From Caprimulgus europaeus (lineage: Eukaryota > Chordata > Aves > Caprimulgiformes > Caprimulgidae): DNA of 64,000 nucleotides. The notes beneath the pieces are model-generated. The model did not search any database. It saw nothing but the letters and a program-made list of their open reading frames with translations, and was not told the origin of the DNA. The DNA lies in the NCBI GenBank assembly GCA_907165065.1, contig OU015534.1:12655686-12719685 (forward strand), read 5' to 3'. Below are positions 40,441 to 44,444 of the stretch, piece after piece. Numbering within the stretch: position 1 is the stretch's first letter; every line of letters starts with the position of its first letter. The translations under genes and the position numbers were made by a program.

Positions 40441-43400
40441 ATGGCTCCTGCCCGCCTGCTTGGGGTGTGCAGCCTCCTCTGCGCGTGGTCGGTGGTGACG
40501 GGACACCTCTGCAGCCTCAACCAGCAGGTAAGGGGCCAAAGGGGTTCTGGCATGGGCAGTGGCCGGGGACTGGCAGGCACACCCCACTGCTGGTCCTGCC
40601 AGCACAGCCGGGCTGGTGGCACTGTGTGTCTGTGGGGCAGCGGGTCACAGCAGGCAGCTCCCACTCTGCACGGCTCGAGATACGCGAGCCATGGCGTTTC
40701 TGACTCTGAGAGGTCTCTTGGCTGTGCCCATAACGTGGCTGCCATAAGGGGTGCTGCATGGTGAGCAGCAGCGAGGCACATCCCAAGGGCTCCCAGCCCG
40801 TTGCTCCCTTCTCCCACACACAGTGGGAGCAGTGACTGAGCCAGCTCAGGCTGAGTGTGTGGTCAGGATCCCCGGGCACCTGGTGAGAAGCAGGAAAAAC
40901 AACTGGCCCATCCTGGCGGGACAAGCGTGGCAGCCAGCAGCTCAGTGCACCAGGCAGGGGCTGGGAGGAGGCAGGAAACGCAGCTGTCATGGGTGGATGG
41001 CACAGCGCAGTGCTGCCCACCGAGCTCTCAGATACTCCCTCAAAACATTTGTGCTGTTTTCCTCAGCTTCTCCAAGCCCAGCCCTGTCTGAGCTTGGGAC
41101 AGGACCTGTGTGGTGCCCCTGTGGCTCAGCCCCATTATAACCCAGGTGTCAGCAGCCCAGGTTATAAGGGCACAGCCGTTTCTCTAGCAAGCAGGGACGG
41201 CAGGGCCTGACAGGAGATTTGGGGGAACGGGAGGACAAAAGGAGAGGTGATCACAGGAGAGGCAAAGAAATGGAAAGCGGCTAGCTGGGAAGCAGCCAGA
41301 CCTAGAAACTCAGGACTATGGACTGCAGCAAACTTCTAGCATGGCATCTCTGCCTGTGGGGCCCAAATATGGCATTGAGCAGGAGACTGTGACTGCCCAG
41401 CCAAGCTGTTAAGCTGCCAGCCTGCTCTCTGCCAGCTTCGGCTTGGGCAGATGGCCCTCTTGCACATAAAGCCCAGGCAGGAGTAACGTGCTGGGGACCA
41501 CTCCCCATAACCAGTTTGAATTTGGCCACCCTGTTTTCAGGGGGAAAAGAACATCCATCCACTTGGGCTGATCAGTTCATCCAGCAGGCACTGCTGGCTT
41601 TTTGGGATGGCAAATGGTCCTTGGTCTGTTTTATTTACTAGTATAGATAGAGCCAGCCTGCACTAAGCCTCTGCTGCTCTCAGTGTATCCTCAGGGCGGG
41701 CTGGAGGCACAGGTCCCACATCCTGCACGGGCCCTGGGGAGGAGCTCTGGACATGGGTGCCTGGTGCAGGCACCCACCACTCTGCAGCCTGGCCGGCTGC
41801 TGCTGCTGCTGCCTGCCCTTGTAGCGGGCAGGGGTCTTGCCTGCTTCCCTGCCCCAACTGGGAGGATGCCCTTGTGTCACACGAGAGCTCCCCAGGGACT
41901 GGAGGTGGAGATCTAGGAGAGGAAGAGAAAGGTGTTCTGCAAGCTGAATCCAGATGGCAACTGTCCTGGAAGGGGGGACAGGAGGGTGACATTGTGGTCC
42001 CTTTGCACCCACCCCCTCTGTCTGGGTTTCTCCCCAGCTCTTCGTGTTTCTCCTTCACTTCTTCAGTTAGCTGCTCTCAGTCCTGGGCTGTCCTGGGCTG
42101 TCCTGCTCGTCTTTCTCCGTTTATACTGGCCCACACCAAACTGGCAGCTCCTGCCAGTGATTTTTACACCTATTTGTGTCTTCGCTGTTTTGAACTGTGC
42201 AAAGGTAATTAATTAAGACATTTAAACTCCTGGGGAGTCTCAGTCTAGAGATCCTCTCCAGCACAGAGAGCCCATCTCAGACAGCATCTCTTTTTCCAGG
42301 GATGGGCCAACTGCAAGGGGAAGAACCTTCTGCATGCTCCAAGCTCCCTTCCAAGCAACATCAGTGGCGTGGACCTCTCCTTCAACTCCTTGGTCATGCC
42401 CCATCATGGGACTCTCTTGATGCATTTTCCTTCCCTGCGCTCCCTCAACCTCTCTAGCAATGCCCTGTGGGTGCTGAGCCCAGCAGTTTTCTCCAACCTT
42501 GGGGCACTGCGTCTGCTGGACCTGAGCAGCTGCAGCATCACCTACCTCCACACGGATGCTTTCAAGGGCTTGGGAAACTTGCACACTCTGCTCCTAAGAA
42601 ATAACAACCTGCAGGAGCTTGAGGTCCCGGTCTTCCTACCACTGAAGGCTCTTTTCCATCTGGACCTGCAGCACAATGCCCTAGTCTCTGTGGACACCTT
42701 GAGCCTGCAGCTGATGGAGTCAGTCCCACAGGTCCAGCTGGAAGGCAACCCCTGGGTCTGCGACTGCACCGCTCAGCCTCTGCAGCGGTGGCTGCGGCGC
42801 AGGCAAGGTGAGCAGGCAGCGGTGGGTGGCAGGAGAGGTGTTGGGCAGGAGGAGCCCTGGGTGCAGGAGTCCCACTCGATCCTTTTGCTCCAGCCCCTGG
42901 GCAGGCTCTAGGATGGCTTTCCAGGGATCTCTCACACCCTGTTGAGGGACACAGAACCAAAATGTGTCAGTTCCTTGCTTGCATGGAACCAGATACCAGA
43001 GATTACAAGGGACAGCAGACAGGGTAATTTAGCCACTCTTCTGGGAAAGGGGCTGCCTGTACAGTTCAGCCCCTAAATCCACCTTTATGTGTCTACGTGG
43101 GGTGACCACATTTTCAAGAGCTGCTGAGCACTCGGCAGCTCCTCCTATGGAGGAGGATCAGGCTGCAACCCTCTGAGCTTGGCTTCCAGGTGAGAGCAGC
43201 TCTGCAACAGTGGGGTTTCTATCAGTATCCATGAATTTGGCATTATCCAGTTAAAAGGAGCCTCCTAATCATGGTCACACACTTGCATAGTTCCTTGGTC
43301 AGGGAATTTTTTCTTTGCTTGTGTTTTTCAATGTGCTGAGGACTGGCCAGGCTGGAGGGCAGGTGAGGCTGGAGGGCAGAGCCAGGAGCACCTTGCGATG

Positions 43401-44444
43401 TGTCGCATCAACACAGGAGCAAGTGGGGAGCACCTTCTCTAAACTGGGGAGGGGATGGACAAAGAACCCCCCCATCCCACCTTATTCCCTGTGTCTCCCA
43501 GCTGTGCAGGTGACCTGTGCATCACCTCCGGGGCTGCGGGGCCGGGAGGTCGCTGCTCTGGATTCCCAGGACCTGGGCTGCCAGATGAAGCTGCGGTTTC
43601 CTCGGGCTGTCAGCACGGCACAGCAGATCACGGTGACACACAGCAACAGTAAGTTGTGCAGCTACAGGGTCATCCATAAGGTCCAGCTCCCTCCTGCTTC
43701 TGTCACCCCAGAGGGGACCATAGCTGGAGAACCCCAGCTCTGCCACCCAGTCCCAGGGGCTCAGGCTGCCTGGCAGTGGCTCGGTGGGGAGGGTGGCCAC
43801 CACCTCAAGGTGTTTGCAGGCTTTGCAACAGAGGAGTTAGCAGATGCCACAGAGCCACACAGAACACAGGCTCCACGGTGTTGGGCAGCAGTATCAGACA
43901 GCTGCCTGTCAGTTTTTCCGTGGTAGCCAGCCCTTGGTGAAGAGCATTTATATTGGTCCTAACAAAAGCACTCCGGTGCTGGCTGCACACCGGGGCATGC
44001 ACAGGGCTGGCTGCTGAGGAGCACCGGCTGTGCCGCACGCTGACCTGTCGTACCCTGATGTGCCTTTCCTGCGCCGCAGCCACCACACCACCCTCTGGGA
44101 AGGGGGGAAGGAGCTGGCCGTACCTGGTGGGCTTCCTGGTGGCAGCAATCGGCCTCTCCATCCTGATCGCGCTGGCTGCCAAGTGCAAGCTCTTCCACAA
44201 GAACTTTGCCAGCTACCGCCACCGGCCGCTGCCTGAAACCAGCTCGATCGGAGACAGCCCCATGGAGGATGGCAGTGGCTGGGACAGGGGCTCCTCAGGC
44301 CGGGGGGGCAGGGAGAGCCACCCCATGCCTGGTGCTGCTGACCTGCAAGCTGAGGATGACGATGGCTTCATTGAGGACAATTACATCCAGCCAAGTGAGC
44401 AGCTGCCGGAGGAAGAGGAGCGGGAGTCACACCTCTCCATCTGA
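40441..44444 (+). CDS. C1orf210: TEMP orthologue (C1orf210) with LRR ectodomain
   Basis: Four coding exons: 40441-40527, 42300-42807, 43502-43648 and 44080-44444. They total 1107 nt, 368 aa, phases 0, 1, 1. Seen: a signal peptide (residues 1 to about 21: [21 protein letters not shown]), a leucine-rich-repeat block (about 45-175, with [33 protein letters not shown] and [11 protein letters not shown]), a cysteine-rich LRR C-cap ([16 protein letters not shown] to DLGC), one TM helix (about 261-281) and a cytoplasmic tail. The tail has the segments [20 protein letters not shown] and [13 protein letters not shown]. These match the membrane helix and tail of mammalian TEMP, a roughly 113-residue endosomal membrane protein, as recalled. 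Synteny (between TIE1 and TMEM125) supports orthology. Human TEMP lacks the signal peptide and LRRs. Likely a type I surface or endosomal membrane protein; ligand unknown. Confidence 0.9.

Follow-up and report, generated by a model that had tools for sequence, protein, structure and literature searches.

Introduction

The mouse protein TEMP, encoded by C1orf210, has been described as a 111-residue membrane protein without a signal peptide, with its N-terminus outside (type III topology), located at early and recycling endosomes and at the plasma membrane, and expressed only in stomach, kidney and intestine (PMC3901140, of which we draw on parts here and below). The same parts of that report state that TEMP orthologues are found only in mammals, that function could not be inferred from the sequence, that a putative N-glycosylation site is conserved at the amino-terminus in mammals, and that a 15-residue tail motif, invariant in mammalian TEMP, also occurs in Lrrc19. 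LRRC19 is itself described, in the portions of two reports used here (PMC4742566, PMC10763354), as a receptor of gut epithelium that lacks a TIR domain, signals via TRAF2/TRAF6 and NF-kB, and is responsive to microbial products, among them a flagellin. Here we describe the gene at positions 40,441 to 44,444 of a 64,000-nucleotide stretch of Caprimulgus europaeus DNA (GCA_907165065.1, contig OU015534.1, 12,655,686-12,719,685; hereafter the window, on contig C11 of our assembly searches), which with a probability of roughly 80% is the full-length bird C1orf210/TEMP, the sister copy of LRRC19 from the two rounds (2R) of vertebrate genome duplication, with an ancestral leucine-rich repeat (LRR) ectodomain that was lost toward mammals.

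Structure of the TEMP-locus gene

When spliced in silico, four forward-strand exons join in frame to give a 1107-nt product encoding 368 amino acids plus a stop, with no internal stop codon, and all three introns are bordered by GT and AG. Exon 1 (40441-40527; 29 codons, ending in phase 0) contains the ATG, a signal-like N-terminus that is hydrophobic by hydropathy, and N-cap cysteine C24, and exon 2 (42300-42807, phase 0 to 1) contains N-cap cysteine C34, the LRR array recognized by Pfam and the start of the C-cap (C183, C185). Exon 3 (43502-43648, phase 1 to 1) provides the remainder of the C-cap (C204, C225) and a stalk, and exon 4 (44080-44444), which matches LRR19-TM, encodes the membrane helix, a cytoplasmic tail with a DGFIED-YI motif, and the stop codon. 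An N-T-T sequon (residue 247) straddles the exon 3/4 junction, 15 residues N-terminal to the helix. Third codon positions in the four exons have a GC content of 0.74-0.86, compared to an overall GC of 0.54-0.60 in the three introns. The sequence-only reading had proposed four in-frame exons for a signal peptide, LRRs, C-cap, transmembrane helix and tail, and splice borders, Pfam and hydropathy agree with it, the signal peptide by hydropathy only.

A Pfam scan of the 368-residue product reports LRR_8 (E 9e-25), LRRCT (21.4 bits, cut-off 20) and LRR19-TM (PF15176; residues 249-355, 42.6 bits, cut-off 27), the last of which places the protein in that family. LRR-like strands begin at residues 50, 75, 99, 123, 147 and 171, with a stray match at 238 to the relaxed pattern used, and the strongest hydrophobic stretch lies at residues 262-281, with the N-terminus also hydrophobic. 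The ectodomain thus has the LRRs, N- and C-cap cysteines and, by hydropathy, the signal peptide of the LRRC19/LRR19-TM family, and bird TEMP is predicted to be a type I LRR-bearing membrane protein. Toll-like and other type I LRR receptors share an LRR ectodomain with it, and TLR3, LRRC15 and LGR4 match the TEMP LRR exons among the best 60 of 248 matches; however, unlike Toll-like receptors, TEMP has a short tail and no TIR domain in a Pfam scan to E 1, and it is not a Toll-like receptor. A scan against NCBIfam, a bacterial and archaeal library, gave five families, all well under cut-off.

The likeness to mammalian TEMP was judged solely on the 15-residue motif printed in PMC3901140, and the bird tail has 14 of these 15 residues, with S for G at the last position; as far as this motif goes, the earlier assignment of the tail to mammalian C1orf210/TEMP is borne out. 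The two proteins also have in common a single helix and a sequon N-terminal to it. However, whereas the mouse protein has 111 residues, type III topology and no signal peptide (PMC3901140), that of the bird has 368 residues, LRRs, a signal-like N-terminus and a predicted type I topology. The gene at 40441-44444 is therefore a TEMP-locus gene of ancestral form and not a TEMP of mammalian form. It lies between TIE1 and TMEM125, as the sequence-only reading had also said, and we take TIE1-TEMP-TMEM125 to be the mammalian gene order. Beyond the tail motif and this gene order, orthology to mammalian TEMP is what we infer.

Upstream of the coding region, a pyrimidine-rich tract ending in CAG (40396-40440, +), noticed by eye and lying 14 nt before the ATG, is a candidate acceptor and would imply a possible upstream non-coding 5' exon. 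An ATTAAA hexamer matching a poly(A) signal is located at 44862-44867 (+), approximately 420 nt past the stop codon.

Comparison with LRRC19

The assembly is 1.18 Gb in 121 contigs, and since the whole-genome searches score best candidates only, counts from them are lower bounds. A search for LRR19-TM (E <= 10) returned at least five matches, and two of those listed pass the cut-off: the TEMP locus on C11, which as a single exon scores 31.1 bits, and a site on C37 at 15756184-15756495, scoring 117 bits. A weak match at C1:8867752 was rejected as chance, as it is below cut-off, contains a stop and has no convincing frame. The C37 gene, modelled on the minus strand, has coding exons of 84, 511, 210 and 326 nt and a product of 376 residues with Pfam matches to LRR19-TM (116 bits) and LRR_8, and from its family match, architecture and TEK neighbour we designate it as the putative bird LRRC19. 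The sequence-only reading overlooked this closest relative, as well as the link of the tail motif to Lrrc19 that is already made in the parts of PMC3901140 cited above.

TEMP and LRRC19 share a coding-exon plan. The four TEMP coding exons are 87, 508, 147 and 365 nt in length, compared to 84, 511, 210 and 326 nt in the LRRC19 model, and the intron phases are 0, 1 and 1 in both, such that TEMP has the four-exon, 0-1-1 plan of the LRRC19 family as represented in this genome. The exon 2/3 boundary falls at codon 198.33 in each, and exon 1 has 28 codons in LRRC19 and 29 in TEMP, ending in the identical phase. In LRRC19, the counterparts of the TEMP cap cysteines C24/C34 and C183/C185/C204/C225 are C22/C31 and C180/C182/C206/C227, and LRR-like strands (same relaxed pattern) start at 49, 75, 99, 123, 147 and 168, plus a few stray matches. 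An acceptor-like tract with TAG, seen by eye, precedes the LRRC19 ATG by 9 nt, as one does in TEMP, and these tracts hint that the two genes may have a non-coding first exon in common.

The proteins align by blastp over 354 positions with 29% identity (E 3e-37); exon 2 alone gives 87.4 bits (36.6% identity over 161 aligned positions), and the exon 4 product alone gives 43.1 bits against LRRC19, with a maximum of 18.1 in 100 shuffles. The predicted TEMP gene model is more than chance, both because its coding-exon plan and phases recur in LRRC19, a second gene of this genome, and because the exon 4 product aligns to LRRC19 far above shuffles. The likeness thus extends across a signal-like N-terminus, LRRs, cap cysteines, a single helix, a short tail with DGFIED-YI, the coding-exon plan and, as described below, a head-to-head neighbour of the TIE receptor family.

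The two genes nonetheless differ in several respects. They are only 29% identical and are on different chromosomes, and it is TEMP that has the TMEM125 neighbour. Where TEMP has its tail motif, the LRRC19 tail reads PVEDGFIEDEYID, and sequon matches number 12 in LRRC19, including one in its tail, as against three in TEMP. Their ectodomain surfaces probably differ strongly.

The TIE1-TEMP and TEK-LRRC19 neighbourhoods

TIE1 (23923-31986, -), whose frames match TEK on C37 in the tyrosine kinase and elsewhere, is the head-to-head neighbour of TEMP; on the other side TMEM125 (49539-50201, -; Pfam TMEM125, 4e-51) is convergent. The minus-strand open reading frames at about 24-32 kb in the window match C37 at 15827488-15847242 (+) with identities of up to 96% (25 residues). 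Four of four TIE1 segments in a Pfam scan match the tyrosine-kinase family, two of them passing cut-off, and a fifth segment has EGF-like matches, all of which are below cut-off. When compared with the assembly (E <= 1e-6), one TIE1 kinase segment hits at least three places, namely its own locus, TEK on C37 (75%) and one further site (38%). TEK and LRRC19 point away from each other on opposite strands, just as TIE1 and TEMP do, and as far as the best-candidate searches reach there are two TIE-type loci and two LRR19-TM loci, paired, with each pair head to head.

CTF_NFI matches were found on C11 and C37, as expected if both hold products of vertebrate duplication, and also on C27 and C33. TIE1 and TEK are listed as 2R ohnologs in the part of PMC6389290 used here. 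The locus therefore has the features of an ohnologue, with paralogous neighbours (TIE1/TEK) oriented alike and with further duplicates (NFI) on the two chromosomes, C11 and C37, and most simply the TIE1/TEMP and TEK/LRRC19 pairs are products of one vertebrate genome duplication.

Further out in the window, downstream of TIE1 at 16400-19100 (-), are frames that resemble exons of MPL, the thrombopoietin receptor, in that they contain WSAWS, WGPWS and a cysteine-rich CFSRSFEDLTCFW segment. We regard them as candidate exons of MPL, which presumably also lies beyond TIE1 in mammals. Short segments at 535-778 and 54837-55158 have many matches in a 200-kb region of C37 and are probably dispersed-repeat remnants, at a guess of CR1 type.

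A proposed origin of TEMP

These observations suggest a simple history. An ancestral block in which genes for a TIE-type and an LRRC19/TEMP-type receptor stood head to head would have been duplicated at the base of the vertebrates to give TIE1-TEMP and TEK-LRRC19; both daughters would have kept the ectodomain in the bird genome, and TEMP would have lost it en route to mammals. That TEMP and LRRC19 are ohnologues whose common ancestor had an LRR ectodomain would follow from the paired TIE-type and LRR19-TM loci, the NFI matches, and the listing of TIE1 and TEK as ohnologs. The ectodomain appears ancestral because it recurs, with identical intron phases, in the LRRC19 of this genome, and its loss in mammals would follow by parsimony from an ancestral ectodomain together with the published 111-residue TEMP without a signal peptide. 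Mammalian TEMP would then be a shortened form that starts just before the end of the old stalk and whose helix presumably acts as a reverse signal anchor with no cleaved signal peptide; the loss would be dated to the path toward mammals. The sequence-only reading had anticipated both an ancestral LRR protein and its mammalian truncation, and its first part gains from the family match and phases of LRRC19, while the second would follow by parsimony.

Several points weigh against this origin. The case is drawn from the DNA of one vertebrate genome, and its functional side leans on LRRC19, for which ligand and signalling are taken from published work. Two of the 14 bacterial control genomes also gave LRR19-TM matches, below cut-off; an LRRCT match is missing from the Pfam results for bird LRRC19; and BLAST aligns neither exon 1 nor exon 3 of TEMP with LRRC19 when these exons are used singly. 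The ectodomain model is poor, with a mean pLDDT of 48 in a single-sequence prediction of exon 2 alone, which was set aside. When TEMP is searched against the genome, the 134 matches listed to E <= 1, which include self matches, have LRR genes on C15 (7.4e-20) and C8 (1.9e-18) ahead of the LRRC19 LRR exon (1.0e-17). The converse search with LRRC19 lists 50 matches to E <= 1e-6, with a gene on C8 (2.5e-18) narrowly outscoring TEMP (5.3e-18). Finally, TRAF-type matches in the tails are within chance, with shuffle frequencies of 0.10-0.43. The C15 gene is an LRR gene by eye and is not among the listed LRR19-TM matches. Because the C15 and C8 genes score slightly ahead, LRR similarity alone is not proof that TEMP and LRRC19 are sisters; the case for sisterhood rests on the helix and tail, the exon plan and synteny.

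Alternative explanations

The sequence-only reading regarded the neighbouring receptors as a lead to a vascular or blood role, and TEMP is indeed head to head with TIE1 and has MPL-like frames beyond. A role as a vascular or haematopoietic receptor under joint regulation with TIE1 is nevertheless improbable, as block duplication explains the adjacency, and mouse TEMP is reported in the cited parts of PMC3901140 as restricted to stomach, intestine and kidney. Because LRRC19, in the same kind of pair with TEK, goes with a reported epithelial function, adjacency to TIE1 is no evidence of a vascular one. The lead loses its footing, since the adjacency looks like a duplicated block and the reported biology of the family is that of gut and kidney.

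The direction of change could also be the opposite, with LRR exons shuffled onto an ancestrally short TEMP in birds or sauropsids, a gain to which the other LRR genes scoring about as high as LRRC19 against the TEMP LRR exons lend some colour. However, exons gained in this way must reproduce the three intron phases, exon 2/3 boundary and cap cysteines of LRRC19, which moreover already shares the tail, and we consider such a gain very unlikely.

It is similarly hard to credit that the locus holds two genes or products, an LRR gene of exons 1-3 and a separate short TEMP transcribed from before exon 4. The open frame at 43941-44444 (+) includes an in-frame ATG at 44058, which precedes the first full codon of exon 4 by 24 nt and would yield 128 residues, close to the length of mammalian TEMP, were transcription to start in intron 3, but its context is weak by eye. 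Taken without exon 4, exons 1-3 reveal no second helix, the splice phases match exactly, and LRRC19 shares the plan.

That the locus is LRRC19 itself misplaced, or a recent copy of it, is extremely improbable even though family and architecture are identical in kind, as a separate LRRC19 is present beside TEK on C37, identity between the two proteins is just 29%, the tail motif at the present locus has the TEMP form where the C37 protein has PVEDGFIEDEYID, and TMEM125 and TIE1 flank TEMP.

Possible functions of bird TEMP

If the locus is a full-length TEMP with an ancestral ectodomain, its LRRs would sample the lumenal or extracellular side of an epithelium of gut or kidney type. LRRC19 is reportedly present in kidney as well. 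A single helix and a short, TIR-less tail would bear the D-G-F-I-E-D-[NE]-Y-I motif common to LRRC19, and this motif may recruit a cytosolic partner and sort TEMP between the plasma membrane and early or recycling endosomes. By analogy with LRRC19 and mouse TEMP, the bird protein is thus most likely a surface and endosome LRR receptor of gut- or kidney-type epithelium, with its own ligand and with a tail that would mediate sorting and engage one adaptor in common with LRRC19; tissue, ligand and pathway are all what we infer from these relatives.

The tails of TEMP and LRRC19 were scanned for TRAF, tyrosine and dileucine consensus patterns, none of which is commoner than in shuffled tails. The TRAF6-type consensus PxExxF is matched in the bird LRRC19 tail by PVEDGF, at the conserved motif, whereas the aligned TEMP residues read EDDDGF, without the proline, and the pattern scan found no PxExxF match anywhere in the TEMP tail. 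Shuffling yields such a match in 10% of cases for the LRRC19 tail and in 20% for that of TEMP, and the difference between the two genes may be taken as a weak hint. Without PxExxF, the TEMP tail may therefore serve trafficking or another adaptor. For the pattern [D/E]xxx[L/I], to which the TEMP paper (PMC3901140) refers, the shuffle frequency is 0.90, and it is uninformative here.

Implications

We did not find the proposed TEMP-LRRC19 origin in print in the literature searched; genome databases may already annotate such genes automatically. One tentative idea, which we think unlikely though less so than any of the alternatives above, is that mammals reduced one member of a duplicated pair of epithelial LRR receptors to a ligand-blind protein of tail and helix, which may compete with LRRC19 or traffic it through a common cytosolic partner, while birds keep both full receptors, which could sense different ligands. 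If this is true, mammalian TEMP keeps the shared cytoplasmic motif and tissues (gut, kidney) overlapping those of its sister LRRC19. More generally, the locus gives TEMP a parent, an LRR receptor with LRRC19 as its sister, which would explain the source of TEMP and would provide a clear case of a receptor cut down to its membrane and cytoplasmic part. An orphan endosomal protein would thus become a testable member of an innate-type family of epithelial receptors, and birds would gain a second receptor of the LRRC19 class.

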